DNA of 61,564 bases from Armatimonadota bacterium (lineage in GTDB: Bacteria; Armatimonadota; Chthonomonadetes; Chthonomonadales; CAJBBX01), in contig JAPLCQ010000012.1 in NCBI GenBank assembly GCA_026392115.1, forward strand, positions 1 to 61,564, given 5' to 3'. This document shows, piece by piece, positions 4,587 through 10,177 of the stretch (position 1 is its first letter; each line of letters begins with the position of its first letter). The notes under the pieces were generated by a model. The model ran no database searches, was not told the origin of the DNA, and saw only the letters and a list, made by a program, of their open reading frames with translations. A program made the position numbers and the translations under genes.

Positions 4587-6017
4587 ATGCATCACCACGA
4601 ACGAGACTACCGGTTCCACTCCATGACCACCGCGCTGTGTAGCGAGTGCCTTCGCCCAGCCCCTGCCAAGGTGCTGATCCAGGGCGCACGAGTGATCCTT
4701 CGTCGCCAATGCCCGGCCCATGGCCGCAGCGATGAACTCTTGGAGGAGGATGCCGCCTTCTTCCTACGACAGCAAGAGTACGACAAGCCCGGTTCTGAGA
4801 CGCACGCCGAGACGAAGACCCTGACAGGATGCCCATATGACTGCGGTCTCTGCCCGGATCACGAGCAGCACACCTGCATCGGCCTGCTGGAGATCACCCA
4901 GCGCTGCAACCTGGGTTGCCCGGTCTGCTTCGCCGTCGCGGAGGGCGCCGCGGGGCATAGCCCCGACCTGAGCCTCGCCGCGGCGGGCGCCATGCTGGAC
5001 GCCTACCAGAAGGCCGAGGGCGGCGCGGCCGACGTGCTGCAGATCAGCGGCGGCGAACCCACGCTCCATCCGCAATTGCTCGACATCATCCGGCTGGCCC
5101 GCGCCAAGGGCATCCGCTACACGATGCTCAACACCAACGGCCTTCGCCTGGCGGATGACCCATCGCTGGCCGAGGCGCTCTCCGAGTTCTCCGACGGGTT
5201 CGAAATCTACCTGCAGTTCGACGGCTTCGACGACCGGGGCTCACGGGCGCTCCGCGGCCGCCCGCTGATCGAGACCAAGCGGAAGGCGCTGGAGAACCTG
5301 GCGCGCCACAAGGTGACCGCCACGCTGGTCGCCACCGTGCACGGCGGCGTGAACGACCATGAACTGGGGGCCATCGTCGATTTCGGCATGAAGCACCCGG
5401 CAGTTCGTGGCGTCAACTTCCAGCCCCTCGCCTTCTTCGGTCGCACCGACGGTGCGGACCCGGCAGGGCGCATCACCCGCACGGGCATCCTGAAGCGGTT
5501 GCAGGAGCAGACCGGCGGCATGATCACCATGGACGACTTCGTGCCGCTCCCCTGCGATGTGGACCGCGTGGCCTTCTGCCTGCTCTACCGCCGCGACGGT
5601 CGCTTCACGCCCCTTACGCGGCGCGCCGATGTCCGCAAGTACCTGCCGCTGCTGGACAACACCATGGCCTTCTACGGGCAGGATCTCCTGAAGCAGGCGG
5701 CGAAGAGCCTCTGCGGCGGCGGCGCTTGCTCGTGCTTCAGCTTCGCCAAAGACCTGGTCCCGCTGGCGGGGCTGGCGGGCCGGGGAATGGCAGCCAAGGA
5801 CAAGCCGGCATTCGTCACGGAGAACATCTTTCGGATCAGCGCCACGTCGTTCCTGGACAGGTACACGTTCGAGCTGAAGGGGGCCAAGAAGGAGTGCGTC
5901 CATGTCCTGACGGAGGACGGACGCCGGATTCCCTTCTCGGCCTATAACCTCATCCACAGGGAGGCCCACGCCCATGCCGCACTGGATACCGCCGTGGCCG
6001 GCGGCGCTACCAGATAG
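4587..6017 (+). CDS. Tetraether-synthase-like (Tes/MJ0619-type) radical SAM protein
   Basis: 476 residues. An N-terminal zinc-ribbon-like module (C18-x2-C21 ... C42-P-x-H45) is followed by a second cysteine cluster (C82-P-Y-D-C86-G-L-C89 ... C97) and then the radical SAM motif C107-N-L-G-C111-P-V-C114. GGEPT and TNG elements of the SAM barrel follow, and a late C376-x4-C381-x-C383 cluster could bind another FeS centre. This order of clusters is that of archaeal Tes (MJ0619/MA_1486), which joins lipid tails by C-C coupling to give membrane-spanning tetraethers. Function here is inferred from family resemblance; bacterial homologues may act on other lipids or methylate. It opens an operon whose next gene starts inside its 3' end (5974), with membrane-enzyme and Lgt-like partners, which supports a lipid substrate. 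Confidence 0.72.
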   Translation: MHHHERDYRFHSMTTALCSECLRPAPAKVLIQGARVILRRQCPAHGRSDELLEEDAAFFLRQQEYDKPGSETHAETKTLTGCPYDCGLCPDHEQHTCIGLLEITQRCNLGCPVCFAVAEGAAGHSPDLSLAAAGAMLDAYQKAEGGAADVLQISGGEPTLHPQLLDIIRLARAKGIRYTMLNTNGLRLADDPSLAEALSEFSDGFEIYLQFDGFDDRGSRALRGRPLIETKRKALENLARHKVTATLVATVHGGVNDHELGAIVDFGMKHPAVRGVNFQPLAFFGRTDGADPAGRITRTGILKRLQEQTGGMITMDDFVPLPCDVDRVAFCLLYRRDGRFTPLTRRADVRKYLPLLDNTMAFYGQDLLKQAAKSLCGGGACSCFSFAKDLVPLAGLAGRGMAAKDKPAFVTENIFRISATSFLDRYTFELKGAKKECVHVLTEDGRRIPFSAYNLIHREAHAHAALDTAVAGGATR

Positions 6018-6603
6018 GCTGCTGCTCTGCGCGAGCGCCCTCATCGGCCTCTGCGTGGCGGCCGTGCTGGCGGCCGTGGCGGCCAACTTCGCCATGGCCC
6101 GCGCGTCCGGCGCGGTGGCGGAGCGGCGGCGCAGCCCGGTGGCCACGGCCACCATGCTGGGCTTCGCGTACGCCTTCTACGTGCTGATCCACCGGCGGAT
6201 CGGCGTGGCGCCCGTGCCGCATGACGCCGCGTTGGTGGCGCTCACGCTGGTCGGCTGCCTGCTGGTGGTGGCCGGGTCGGCGGTCAACATCGCGGGGCGG
6301 TTGAACCTGGGGCGGAACTGGGCCGACCAGGTGACGCTCTACGACAGCCAGAGCCTCGTGACCACGGGCGTCTTCGGCGTCGTGCGCCATCCGCTCTATG
6401 CGTCGCTTATCTGGATTTTCGTGGGCACGGCGATGGCCTATCATAACCCGGTCGCGCTGGCCGCCGCGCTGCTCGTCTTCACTCCCGCCATGGCGGTTCG
6501 CGCCCGGCAGGAGGAGGCGCTGCTGGGCCAGGCATTCCCCGACTACGCCGCCTACCAGAAGAGGGTGGGCATGCTCTGGCCTCGACTGCCAAGGAGGACC
6601 TGA
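5974..6603 (+). CDS. Isoprenylcysteine carboxyl methyltransferase (ICMT/PEMT)-family membrane protein
   Basis: 209 residues with about five hydrophobic segments. The C-terminal half carries the family signature: R-H-P-L-Y near residue 133, followed by a hydrophobic hairpin and then E-E-A-L-L-G-x-x-F-P-D-Y-x-x-Y. These elements bind S-adenosylmethionine in ICMT and phospholipid N-methyltransferases. The start at 5974 overlaps the radical SAM gene by 44 nt, so the true start could be slightly further in. Its stop TGA shares a base with the next ATG, indicating translational coupling. A membrane-lipid or small-molecule methyl/alkyl transfer role is likely; the substrate is unknown. Confidence 0.72.
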   Translation: MPHWIPPWPAALPDRLLLCASALIGLCVAAVLAAVAANFAMARASGAVAERRRSPVATATMLGFAYAFYVLIHRRIGVAPVPHDAALVALTLVGCLLVVAGSAVNIAGRLNLGRNWADQVTLYDSQSLVTTGVFGVVRHPLYASLIWIFVGTAMAYHNPVALAAALLVFTPAMAVRARQEEALLGQAFPDYAAYQKRVGMLWPRLPRRT

Positions 6604-7067
6604 TGTTCACGTACAAGCCTGTCACGATCTCCCGCGCCGGCTTCGCCTTCTGCCGCTACTCCGTGGCCGTGGCGCTCTGGGTGGGCGTGCTCTGGCGCAT
6701 CGACTGGCTCGTCGGCCTCTGCGCCCTCGTCATGCTGCTCAGCGCGGTCTTCACCGTAAGCCGGGCGCCCATGGTGCTTCTCTACACCTTCACCGTCGAT
6801 CGGCTGGTCCCCAGCGCCAAGGTGGTGGTGGACGAGAGCGGCCTCCGGTTCGCCCAGAGCGTGGCCGCAGTCGTCATTGGCGTGCCGTGGCTGCTGCTCC
6901 AGTTCGGGCCGGTGGGCATGCAGGAGGCCGTCTGGCGCTTCCTGCCCGTCGTGGCGGTCTTCAAGACGCTGGGCGCGCTGGGCTTCTGCGCGGTGTCGCG
7001 GCTCTACACCTGCGCCATCAGCGGCGGCGACTGCTGCGCGTTCCTCAAGGGACGCTCGCGTGGGTGA
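6603..7067 (+). CDS. DUF4395-type integral membrane protein
   Basis: 154 residues with four hydrophobic segments. The central V-D-E-S-G-L-R-F-A-Q stretch, the following long hydrophobic segment and the C-terminal G-F-C-x(6)-Y-x-C motif match what I know of DUF4395. No enzymatic residues can be assigned. The ATG overlaps the preceding TGA by one base, and the gene overlaps the Lgt-like gene by 8 nt, so it belongs to the same translationally coupled operon. In other bacteria DUF4395 proteins sit near redox or lipid genes; the role here is unknown. Confidence 0.6.
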   Translation: MFTYKPVTISRAGFAFCRYSVAVALWVGVLWRIDWLVGLCALVMLLSAVFTVSRAPMVLLYTFTVDRLVPSAKVVVDESGLRFAQSVAAVVIGVPWLLLQFGPVGMQEAVWRFLPVVAVFKTLGALGFCAVSRLYTCAISGGDCCAFLKGRSRG

Positions 7068-7827
7068 CTCGGCTTTGCCGCCGGGCTGGGGTGTGCGGCC
7101 CGTCCTTTGCACCCCGGCAGGCGTCAACGTGCCTTCGTATGAGGTCTTCCTGCTGCTTGGGCTCGCCGTGGGTGCGTGGGCCTTCGTGCGCTCCGCCCGC
7201 GGCCGGTTCGGCGACGGACCGGAGCCCTACCTGTTGCTGGCGGCGGCCGTGGCAGGCGCCGCGCTGGGCGCAAAACTGCCCGTCTGGCTGGCGCAGATCG
7301 CCCACGGCGGCCCCACCACCCTGGCGGAGTGGCTCACCGGCCGGACGGTGCTGGGCGGCATCGCCGGGGGCGCTGTCGCGGTGATCCTGGTCCGCAGGCG
7401 GCTGGGCATCATGGAGCCGCTGGGCAACGCCTTCGCGCCCGGCCTGGCGCTGGGCATGGCCATCGGGCGCGTGGGCTGCCTGCTACGAGGTTGCTGCTAC
7501 GGCAAGCCGACGGGGCTGCCCTGGGCCGTCGACCTCGGCGACCATGTGGCTCGGCATCCGACGCAGGTCTACGAGGCGCTCTTCTGCCTGGCGCTGGCGG
7601 CATGGCTCCACGGGCTCAGCCGCTCGCGGCCCGCTCCGGGAGCGCTCTTTCGGCTGTTGGTGTTGGCCTACGGGTCCTTTCGGTTTTTGGTTGAGTTCCT
7701 GCGCACCGGTACGCCCGCGTTGGGTGGTCTGAGTCTGGCGCAGGTGGCGTGCCTGGCGCTGGTCGCGACCTATGCCGTGCGTCGGACGCCAGGCGTCGCG
7801 GCTTCAGTGGAGGCAGTCCATGAGTGA
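7060..7827 (+). CDS. Prolipoprotein diacylglyceryl transferase (Lgt)-family membrane protein
   Basis: 255 residues from a GTG start at 7060, chosen because AAGGGA sits about 6 nt upstream and because upstream in-frame codons read as non-native sequence. Lgt signatures are visible: G-R-V-G-C-L-L-R-G-C-C-Y-G-K-P-T with P-W-A-V, then R-H-P-T-Q-V-Y-E-A, and near the C-terminus R-F-L-V-E-F-L-R. About seven hydrophobic helices are present. Canonical Lgt moves diacylglyceryl from phosphatidylglycerol onto lipobox cysteines. The GCC variant of the signature and its position in the radical SAM/ICMT operon suggest a specialised paralog handling another lipid acceptor or donor. Its stop overlaps the next gene by 8 nt. 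Confidence 0.78.
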   Translation: MGDSALPPGWGVRPVLCTPAGVNVPSYEVFLLLGLAVGAWAFVRSARGRFGDGPEPYLLLAAAVAGAALGAKLPVWLAQIAHGGPTTLAEWLTGRTVLGGIAGGAVAVILVRRRLGIMEPLGNAFAPGLALGMAIGRVGCLLRGCCYGKPTGLPWAVDLGDHVARHPTQVYEALFCLALAAWLHGLSRSRPAPGALFRLLVLAYGSFRFLVEFLRTGTPALGGLSLAQVACLALVATYAVRRTPGVAASVEAVHE

Positions 7828-8116
7828 ACCAAGGAACAACCTGGCCGAGTTCATGATCGGCCTCATGTGCGGGATCGGATGCTTCATCGCCACGGCCATG
7901 CTGGCGGGACTGGCGGTGGCAGCACTGCCCGCCGCGGGCGCGTTGTTGTGGCTGGCGTTGCTGGTCGGGCTCGTAGCCACCGTCGCCCTCATTGCGCGGT
8001 TTTACCAGCAGGACCGTAGCGCCTGTGCGGCCGGGGCCATCACCGGAGCGGCGCTCCCGTTCCTCGCCCTGGGCGCCTGCGCGGCGTTGGTGGCGGCCAA
8101 CGGCGGCTTCAGCTAA
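7820..8116 (+). CDS. Small hydrophobic membrane protein, copy 1 of a tandem pair
   Basis: 98 residues; begins MSEPRNNLAEFMIGL and has three hydrophobic segments separated by a basic loop (RFYQQDRSAC). No family recognised. The ATG at 7820 is 8 nt inside the Lgt-like gene and follows a GGAGGCAG ribosome site. It is clearly paralogous to the protein at 8159 (same N-terminus and same ACAAGAITGAALPFLALGAC-like third segment). It may be an accessory subunit of the membrane-lipid system. Confidence 0.65.
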   Translation: MSEPRNNLAEFMIGLMCGIGCFIATAMLAGLAVAALPAAGALLWLALLVGLVATVALIARFYQQDRSACAAGAITGAALPFLALGACAALVAANGGFS

Positions 8117-8158
8117 GGACAACGCCGCCATGTGTTGCTGCAATAGCGGAGACATCCC

Positions 8159-8452
8159 ATGAGTGAGCCCCAGAACGGTCTGGCCGAGTTCATGATCGGC
8201 TTCCTGTGCGGGATCGGGTGCGCCATTGCCACGGCCATGCTGGCGGGCCTGGCGTGGTCGACGTTGCCAACGGTCGGTGCGCTGCTGGGGCTGGCCTATC
8301 TCGTCGGCCTCGGAGCCACCGTCGCACTCATCGTCCGGTTCTTCCGGCAGGGGCGAAGCGCCTGCGCGGCCGGGGCGATCACAGGTGCGGCGCTCCCGTT
8401 CCTCGCCCTGGGCGCCTGCGCGGCGGTCGTAGCAGCCAGCGGGTTCGGCTAA
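8159..8452 (+). CDS. Small hydrophobic membrane protein, copy 2 of a tandem pair
   Basis: 97 residues, beginning MSEPQNGLAEFMIGF, roughly three-quarters identical to the protein at 7820 with the same three hydrophobic segments. The two genes are 42 nt apart, so this is a tandem duplication kept in frame with conserved protein sequence, which argues that both are expressed. Function unknown. Confidence 0.65.
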   Translation: MSEPQNGLAEFMIGFLCGIGCAIATAMLAGLAWSTLPTVGALLGLAYLVGLGATVALIVRFFRQGRSACAAGAITGAALPFLALGACAAVVAASGFG

Positions 8453-8500
8453 GCATAGCGCCGGTGGGGCGTGTGCTATCCTTGGCCGGAGGACTGCACT

Positions 8501-10177
8501 ATGTCTGAGCTGACGGCGCTGCCCCAGTGGCGCGCGCTTTCCGACCATGCCCGCGGGATGGCCGGCTTCAACCTGCGCCAGGCGTTTGACACCGATCCCG
8601 GCCGCGCCGGCCGCTTCTCGGTGGAGCTGGGCGACCTGTTCCTGGACTACTCCAAGAACCTGATCACCGACGAGACGCTGAAGCTGCTCCTCGCGCTGGC
8701 CGAGGTGCGCAACGTAGAGGGCTTCCGCGACCGGATGTTCGCGGGCGAGCTCATCAACAACACCGAGCGCCGGGCCGTGCTGCATACCGCCCTGCGCTAC
8801 CAGGGCGACGAGCCTCTGAAGCTGACGCGCCCCGACGGGAGCGAGGAGGATGTCCGCGCCGAGGTCGCCGATGTCCTGGGTCGCATGAAGGCGTTCACCG
8901 AGGATGTGCGCTCGGGTGAGCGCCGCGGCAGCACGGGCCTGCCCTTCACCGATGTGGTGAACATCGGCATCGGCGGCTCGGACCTTGGCCCGGCCATGGC
9001 CGTGCGAGCGCTGACGCCCTACACGCACGACCGGCTCCGCTTCCACTTCGTCTCGAACGTTGACCCCACGCACATCGCGGAAACCGTCCGCCAGTTGGAC
9101 CTCGCAACGACGCTCTTCATCGTGGTGTCAAAGACATTCGGCACCCAGGAGACGCTGGCCAACGCGCGGGTCGTGCGCGACCTGTACCTCACCACACAGC
9201 TCCCCCGCAACGCGCTGGCCAAGCACGTCGTCGCGGTGAGTTCGGAGCCGAAGCCGGTCCAGGATTTCGGGATCGAGCTGGAGAACATGTTCGAGTTCTG
9301 GGACTGGGTGGGCGGCCGCTACTCGGTCTGGTCCGCGGTGGGGCTCAGCCTGGCCATCGCCATAGGTTTCGACAACTTCGTGCAGTTCCATCGCGGCGCC
9401 CACGCGATGGACAAGCACTTCCAGACGGCGCCGGCGGGCAAGAACATGCCCATCCTGCTGGCATTGCTGGGCGTCTGGTACCGCAACTTCATGGGCGCCG
9501 CCACCCACGCCGTGCTCCCGTATGACCAGTACCTGGCCCGCTTCCCCGCCTACCTGCAGCAGGCCGACATGGAGTCCAACGGCAAGCGCGTGGACCGCAA
9601 CGGCGTCGAGGTCGATTACCAGACCGGCCCCATCATCTGGGGCGAACCCGGCACCAACGGCCAGCACGCCTTCTACCAGCTGATCCACCAGGGGACGCAA
9701 CTCATACCGGCGGACCTGATCGCCTGCATCAAGACGCACAACCCGGTGGCCAACCTCCACGACCTGTTGCTGGCGAACTGCCTTGCCCAGGGCGAGGCGC
9801 TCATGACCGGCAAGACCACCGTTGAGGCGGGGAAGGATGTCACGCCGACCGAGACCGCGAAGCTCGAGTCGCTTGGCATGCCGGCCGACGAGATCGCACG
9901 CATGCCCAACCACCGCACGTTCCCTGGGAACCGGCCCACCAACACCTTGCTGATCCACAAGCTGACGCCCGGCAACCTCGGCGCCCTCATCGCCCTGTAC
10001 GAGCACAAGATCCACGTGCAGGGGGCGATCTGGGGCATCAACTCCTACGACCAGTGGGGTGTTGAGCTGGGCAAGAAGCTGGCGGGCCGCGTCCACTTGG
10101 ACCTGCAGGGTGTGGAGCCGGCAGGCAAACACAACAGCAGCACGCGCGGCCTGATCGAGCGCATCCGCAAGCACTGA
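8501..10177 (+). CDS. pgi: Glucose-6-phosphate isomerase
   Basis: 558 residues, the usual length for E. coli-type Pgi. It interconverts glucose-6-phosphate and fructose-6-phosphate in the cytoplasm. Both family signatures are present: D-W-V-G-G-R-Y-S-V-W-S-A-V-G-L near residue 270 and G-A-I-W-G-I-N-S-Y-D-Q-W-G-V-E-L-G-K near residue 510, plus the phosphate-binding G-I-G-G-S-D-L-G-P and the catalytic-Glu region M-E-S-N-G-K. The start MSELTALPQWRAL follows a GGAGG site; an upstream in-frame ATG at 8471 has no ribosome site. It lies 48 nt after the small membrane gene, possibly in the same transcript. Confidence 0.95.
   Translation: MSELTALPQWRALSDHARGMAGFNLRQAFDTDPGRAGRFSVELGDLFLDYSKNLITDETLKLLLALAEVRNVEGFRDRMFAGELINNTERRAVLHTALRYQGDEPLKLTRPDGSEEDVRAEVADVLGRMKAFTEDVRSGERRGSTGLPFTDVVNIGIGGSDLGPAMAVRALTPYTHDRLRFHFVSNVDPTHIAETVRQLDLATTLFIVVSKTFGTQETLANARVVRDLYLTTQLPRNALAKHVVAVSSEPKPVQDFGIELENMFEFWDWVGGRYSVWSAVGLSLAIAIGFDNFVQFHRGAHAMDKHFQTAPAGKNMPILLALLGVWYRNFMGAATHAVLPYDQYLARFPAYLQQADMESNGKRVDRNGVEVDYQTGPIIWGEPGTNGQHAFYQLIHQGTQLIPADLIACIKTHNPVANLHDLLLANCLAQGEALMTGKTTVEAGKDVTPTETAKLESLGMPADEIARMPNHRTFPGNRPTNTLLIHKLTPGNLGALIALYEHKIHVQGAIWGINSYDQWGVELGKKLAGRVHLDLQGVEPAGKHNSSTRGLIERIRKH

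Follow-up and report, generated by a model that had tools for sequence, protein, structure and literature searches.

We analysed a 61,564-nucleotide stretch of DNA (contig JAPLCQ010000012.1; hereafter the window) from the metagenome-assembled genome (MAG) of an Armatimonadota bacterium of soil or lake. It contains a six-gene operon encoding a radical S-adenosylmethionine (SAM) protein that resembles archaeal tetraether synthase (Tes), an ICMT-type membrane methyltransferase, a DUF4395 protein, an Lgt paralog and two small membrane proteins. Judged from sequence, a clade of Lgt paralogs, Tes-like radical SAM enzymes and small proteins with a conserved cysteine form a conserved three-part module, and this is a new result. 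We tentatively suggest that the operon is one version of this widespread, undescribed membrane-modification module, and that it would yield a tailored small membrane protein bearing a lipid anchor, and not bulk tetraether lipid. It appeared more likely that the module modifies its small proteins than that it builds exotic membrane lipids. This is close to the unusual lipid anchor that a preliminary description of this DNA had offered as its alternative.

Distribution of the module

We collected 91 non-redundant loci, many of them on MAG contigs, solely by the similarity of their radical SAM proteins. An Lgt homolog was encoded on the strand of the radical SAM gene at 79 of them, in at least ten phyla, and the two genes were no more than 500 bp apart at 55. 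Small membrane proteins accompanied the pair at most loci. The longer core order of radical SAM, ICMT, DUF4395 and LGT genes was observed, with variants, at eleven loci, two of which (L028 and L041) are one contig. As this four-gene set recurs across five phyla (Armatimonadota, Elusimicrobiota, Bacillota, Actinomycetota and Thermodesulfobacteriota), the grouping in the operon is not due to chance. The earlier proposal that the genes act together was thus borne out by the gene-order check, which points to a conserved functional unit.

In a sample of 201 Armatimonadota genomes, a radical SAM relative (E <= 1e-40) was present in 34 and was of the operon type in seven; by comparison of coordinates, an Lgt copy adjoined this relative in at least 25 of the 34. 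The hosts of the module also include Flavobacterium, Chitinophaga, Pedobacter, Paenibacillus, cyanobacteria and mycobacterial plasmids. A later search of plasmid records yielded an Lgt-family gene, two small genes and a radical SAM gene on Mycobacterium avium and M. branderi plasmids, and the same trio on a Persicobacter plasmid. The small-protein motifs on these plasmids were AGYC, AGIC, GGLC, VGVC and GTGIC. The mycobacterial trios occupy positions 3213-6533 of L219 (M. avium) and 3343-6536 of L220 (M. branderi), and their small proteins share a C-terminal GxCTGLNP. Module copies were also seen on contigs labelled Woesearchaeota and Thalassarchaeaceae (L043 and L105), and the Woesearchaeota MAG has a second Lgt as well, which is unusual for archaea. 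These archaeal-labelled copies are possibly the result of misbinning or transfer.

No paper describing the module and no family model for it was found in the open-access PubMed Central (PMC) literature and the family libraries, in line with the earlier statement that no description of a pathway with exactly these genes was known. Searches of that literature also returned nothing relevant on a system combining Lgt, or a lipobox, with a radical SAM enzyme. A function for the three-part gene set was not described in the papers and libraries searched.

The small proteins, their cysteine and the Lgt paralog

The two small proteins of the operon are 79% identical to each other. The small proteins gave no above-cut-off match in Pfam or NCBIfam, and their fold none in the PDB structure search. 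In an alignment of ten sequences (the operon pair and proteins of the core clade), only G73, G86 and C88 were invariant. The AlphaFold2 (AF2) model of small protein 1, numbered from window base 7817, has helices at residues 4-36, 41-64 and 68-94, with C88 in the last (mean pLDDT 77.8). Across the module, the small proteins have one to three helices, number one to four per locus, often in tandem, and have in the last helix, close to its outer end, a cysteine in a G-x-C-like context. We observed a cysteine within the last 16 residues at 63 of the 68 loci with a hydrophobic small open reading frame (ORF) at most 120 bp away. Counted per ORF, this was true of 66 of 74 near ORFs and of 20 of 78 distant control ORFs (p 3.6e-16), although many of these controls may not be genes.

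We also evaluated the charges in 88 small proteins, a set pre-selected for a cysteine in the last 26 residues, so that its informative part is the charge pattern. The median number of uncharged residues between the last charged residue and the cysteine was 19. The loop before the cysteine helix was net positive in 74 proteins and negative in 5, and the tail was near neutral. By the positive-inside rule, the positive loop, the uncharged stretch and the near-neutral tail put the cysteine on the side of the outer leaflet, which is where Lgt acts. The conserved cysteine is thus close to the probable extracytoplasmic end of a transmembrane helix that runs from inside to outside. This arrangement is similar to that of a lipoprotein signal peptide with its lipobox, in that a positive loop is followed by about 19 uncharged residues and then by [L/F]G[A/S/T]C where an in-to-out helix reaches the outer face. 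It differs in that, in most clades, the motif belongs to the C-terminal end of a polytopic small protein, and in the preferences at -2 and -1; the operon proteins have LGAC in the last helix and no N-terminal lipobox signal peptide. In the distant Armatimonadota versions, the cysteine (in G-S-C, G-T-C or G-G-C) closes the first in-to-out helix past a ribbon, and the constant feature may therefore be the position at the outer membrane face rather than the C-terminus. The tandem copies, up to three or four, had divergent N-termini and a constant cysteine segment, which suggested that the small proteins are substrates. Some of them have apparent zinc ribbons, as judged by reading the sequence.

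The Lgt protein of the operon matched Pfam LGT with an E of 2.7e-34 (119 bits, cut-off 24.9), while it scored 56 bits against the NCBIfam lgt equivalog TIGR00544, below the cut-off of 118.9. In the tree, the module Lgts formed a clade of their own (support 99/89), apart from the housekeeping Lgts; the exception was L056, a long and unsure row, which was placed among the latter. A second, higher-scoring Lgt, the separate housekeeping one, was present in all of the 15 genomes examined. The operon paralog belongs to the fold family of E. coli Lgt (5azb) and keeps its R143 (R137), G154, Y235 (Y204), R239 (R208) and Y26 (Y27), whereas H103 is replaced by Leu, and N146 and E151 by Cys. Throughout the module, R143, R239, Y235 and G154 were kept, and N146 was Cys in all members of the residue table. 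H103 was V, L or I in the operon's clade, where Y26 is kept, and mostly V, L or M in the sister clade. Y26, H103, R143, N146, G154 and R239 count as essential residues in E. coli Lgt. Function of that enzyme is abolished by H103A and by N146A, and R143 and R239 have a role in phosphatidylglycerol binding (PMC13251419). Distant Lgts with N146C and E151C are on record, and the second mycobacterial Lgt, MSMEG_5408 (Y26H/N146C), resembles the operon paralog, but in N146C only (PMC13251419).

The preliminary description had spoken of a GCC signature altered in the Lgt-family transferase. This trait is neither diagnostic nor special to the paralog: the organism's own housekeeping Lgt, encoded beside lspA (L166, G000:C55:113251-114006), also carries GRIGCFLNGCCYG, together with N146C and E151C and without H103, and we ruled the signature out as a mark of new chemistry. 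N146C was observed in all five Armatimonadota housekeeping Lgts examined. Since the housekeeping Lgt shares both GRIGCFLNGCCYG and the loss of H103, and N146C and E151C are published for distant Lgts, Lgt chemistry in the paralog appears possible.

In the mechanism that we tentatively favour, the small proteins would be the substrates. With a phospholipid as donor, the Lgt paralog would attach a diacylglyceryl group (or a related one) to the thiol of the conserved cysteine, just as Lgt does with a lipobox. Hydrogen abstraction by the radical SAM enzyme would follow, at an unactivated carbon either in the attached lipid or in a nearby residue, and the enzyme would then form a C-C or C-S bond. 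For the operon's clade, the ICMT/PEMT-type methyltransferase could add a methylation, and the DUF4395 protein a thiol or redox step. That these steps constitute a new protein-modification pathway, in which the paralog lipidates an intramembrane cysteine and the Tes-fold enzyme makes C-C or C-S bonds on the lipid to give a lipid-crosslinked, possibly membrane-spanning protein anchor, we consider quite unlikely. The cysteine-bearing small proteins make a direct test by mass spectrometry possible.

Several points weigh against small proteins as lipidated substrates. The lipobox is [LV][ASTVI][GAS]C (PMC8689077), and the small-protein motif is unlike it, with G, S or A usual at -2, A, V or I at -1 and hydrophobic residues after the cysteine; the lipidation of this cysteine is itself a prediction. 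The module Lgts are without H103 and with N146C, although N146C is also found in Armatimonadota housekeeping Lgts. The radical SAM enzyme is presumably cytosolic while the cysteine faces outward, and its substrate is one that we infer. No small protein was seen at 18 of the 91 loci by the filter used, and one of four tandem small paralogs in genome G126 (L206 4759-5203) has LLWGLWM without the conserved cysteine.

The small proteins could, alternatively, be subunits that bring the radical SAM enzyme to the membrane and to the Lgt paralog there, with a redox or structural cysteine, in a complex that modifies another lipid, a quinone or a thiol. Such a complex would account for the Cys-rich membrane partners of the operon's clade (GC...GCC in the Lgt paralog, C...CC in DUF4395 and the small-protein cysteine), and for the single small gene per cluster at many loci. 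However, three or four divergent tandem copies fit substrates better than subunits, and the cysteine is placed as that of an Lgt substrate would be, so that we regard this explanation as rather unlikely.

A Tes-fold radical SAM enzyme that is not Tes

The radical SAM protein of the operon contains the Pfam domains Radical_SAM and Zn_ribbon_HMPTM. Its top NCBIfam match was TrsS (NF045646; 344.6 bits, cut-off 490), followed by the Tes equivalog (NF045702; 286.2 bits, cut-off 450), and as it scores below both cut-offs it belongs to neither family. Archaeal Tes (GDGT-MAS, MJ0619, here MjTes; PDB 7tol/7tom), at 32% identity, was the only strong PDB sequence relative (7tol, E 1.5e-72). In Foldseek, the AF2 model (mean pLDDT 82.8) matched 7tol/7tom with TMq 0.79-0.82 over about 500 columns, that is, nearly the whole length including the C-terminal domain; the remaining top matches covered the radical SAM core alone. 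In the maximum-likelihood tree, the protein fell among other ICMT/DUF4395-linked proteins, in a clade with 100/100 support. The sister clade (89/93) is large and contains Bacteroidota, Bacillota, Cyanobacteriota, Pseudomonadota and Planctomycetota, while archaeal Tes formed a separate 100/100 clade on a long branch (1.63). The protein is thus a full-length Tes-fold enzyme, but not Tes, and unlike that of Tes its gene is linked to those of an Lgt paralog and of small membrane proteins.

TrsS, a radical SAM (seleno)protein, belongs to the same wider family. The TrsS-type loci (L029, L030 and an M. vanbaalenii plasmid) have a soluble methyltransferase and no pairing with an Lgt paralog, whereas the methyltransferase of the operon is an ICMT-type membrane protein; TrsS membership was ruled out by the cut-off and this gene context. 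The locus L030 (3013-4335), from another Armatimonadota genome, has a TrsS-type radical SAM gene in which an in-frame TGA probably encodes selenocysteine; a methyltransferase gene comes next. A viperin or defence identity was also ruled out, the PADLOC pVip matches being limited to the radical SAM core.

We compared 12 members of the core clade with thirteen Tes sequences column by column. The rubredoxin ligands (C9/C12/C33/H36), the N-cluster (C73/C77/C80/H83) and the CxxxCxxC of Tes were all aligned and kept, as C18, C21, C42 and H45 (CxxC...CxxH), C82/C86/C89/H92 and C107/C111/C114, respectively. The rubredoxin and N-cluster ligands and the C-cluster Met439 were taken from PMC9433317; H83 and the C-cluster cysteines C338, C455 and C470 were assigned here, the three cysteines by conservation. 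The C-cluster positions C338/M439/C455/C470 are R327/T420/E436/S451 in the operon protein. All 12 core members have lost the three cysteines and have Thr or Ser at Met439. Tyr459 of Tes, which lies near the substrate carbon, is Val in the operon protein and Val or Ile in all 12. Further cysteines, C97, C323 and C437, are family-specific, with C323 and C437 kept throughout the bacterial family; C381xC383 is specific to the clade and present in most core members, in a segment of low confidence in the AF2 model. C323, C381xC383 and C437 are a candidate replacement set for the lost ligands, in which C381 and C383 would jointly bind a cluster.

Of the Tes-like order of cysteine clusters in the preliminary description, the zinc ribbon, the N-cluster and the radical SAM motifs stood, and the fold extended the likeness. 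The late CxxxxCxC did not, since there is no CxC at that place in Tes and the operon protein has lost the C-cluster ligands, and neither did the placement with Tes. The description had named two grounds for giving up its lipid role: a place outside Tes in a family of known different function, or an unconserved gene order together with relatives that lack unusual lipids. We found the protein outside the Tes clade, in a family that is not one of known function, and the gene order conserved, which bears out the first ground in part and speaks against the second.

A Tes-like enzyme could couple lipid tails into membrane-spanning lipids, with the Lgt paralog and the methyltransferase altering head groups. 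The retention of the whole Tes fold with its C-terminal domain, and of the rubredoxin, N-cluster and radical SAM motifs, is consistent with such bulk lipid synthesis, and Zeng et al. propose that bacterial Tes homologs synthesize branched glycerol dialkyl glycerol tetraethers (brGDGTs; PMC8941075). This bacterial activity has been called unconfirmed (PMC11868695). The operon protein is outside the Tes clade, all four C-cluster ligands and Tyr459 are lost, and the conserved-Cys small proteins would be left unexplained. DUF2229, which we take to represent PlsA/Ger-type reductases, was found neither in the operon genome nor in five of the six relatives with the cluster, the T. maritima control being positive. 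The sister-clade hosts are ordinary mesophiles, and we know of no membrane-spanning lipids in Flavobacterium, Chitinophaga or Paenibacillus. We conclude that bulk lipid synthesis is unlikely, and the membrane-spanning or ether-lipid role proposed earlier is left without support.

This has a bearing on published surveys that treat bacterial 'Tes homologs', identified with cut-offs of about 30% identity and E 1e-30, as potential producers of brGDGTs (PMC8941075, PMC11868695). Such a cut-off against MjTes was passed by 53 of the 62 module enzymes having a match, whereas the query of the Black Sea study was M. aeolicus Tes. Counts of brGDGT makers based on such homologs may mislead, because module enzymes pass the cut-off although the catalytic-cluster ligands of Tes are missing from the operon's clade and the entire group is associated with Lgt paralogs.

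Maturation resembling that of ribosomally synthesized and post-translationally modified peptides, with the radical SAM enzyme forming a thioether or C-C crosslink inside the small protein and the Lgt paralog anchoring the product, is very doubtful: the small genes in tandem, whose products keep a conserved C-terminal segment, and remote structural matches to the peptide maturases SkfB, SuiB and ChlB, would suit it, but these matches comprise the radical SAM core only (TMq about 0.35-0.38; Tes reached 0.79-0.82), the neighbourhood has no conserved protease, exporter or leader-binding domain, and the substrate would be embedded in the membrane.

Layout of the operon

All six genes lie on the + strand, as described before; the first five overlap by 1-44 bases and the sixth follows 42 bases further on. 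The membrane methyltransferase, DUF4395 and Lgt-family partners named earlier were likewise recovered by Pfam.

Table. Coordinates of the operon in the window
Feature	Position	Strand	Basis
Tes-like radical SAM protein, 476 aa	4587..6017	+	Pfam, NCBIfam, PDB search, column analysis, AF2 model, Foldseek
ICMT/PEMT-type integral membrane methyltransferase, 209 aa	5974..6603	+	Pfam, synteny in core clade
DUF4395 membrane protein, C-terminal Cys cluster YTCAISGGDCC	6603..7067	+	Pfam
Lgt paralog, GTG start probable	about 7060..7827	+	Pfam, tree, residue table
Small three-helix membrane protein 1, last-helix motif ALGAC	7820..8116	+	Gene call, AF2
Conserved last-helix Cys codon, small protein 1	8078..8080	+	Invariant in ten-sequence alignment
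Small membrane protein 2, tandem paralog, last-helix motif ALGAC	8159..8452	+	Gene call, alignment
Conserved last-helix Cys codon, small protein 2	8417..8419	+	Ten-sequence alignment

The methyltransferase matched Pfam ICMT (E 2.5e-12; 47.5 bits, cut-off 24) and PEMT (7.2e-12), and scored 65.7 bits against the NCBIfam isoprenylcysteine methyltransferase equivalog, below the cut-off of 160. DUF4395 was above cut-off in six of 41 relatives, precisely the six with the core radical SAM cluster; in the open-access PMC literature, a search for it gave two mentions, both in passing. The ICMT and DUF4395 genes are present in some branches of the module only, and in the distant Armatimonadota branch they lie upstream of the radical SAM gene.

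The congeners G001 and G002 have the same gene order, G001 with three small-protein matches. A glucose-6-phosphate isomerase gene (window 8471-10177, same strand) lies 18-50 bp past the last small-protein gene and is kept in G001; it is probably outside the module.

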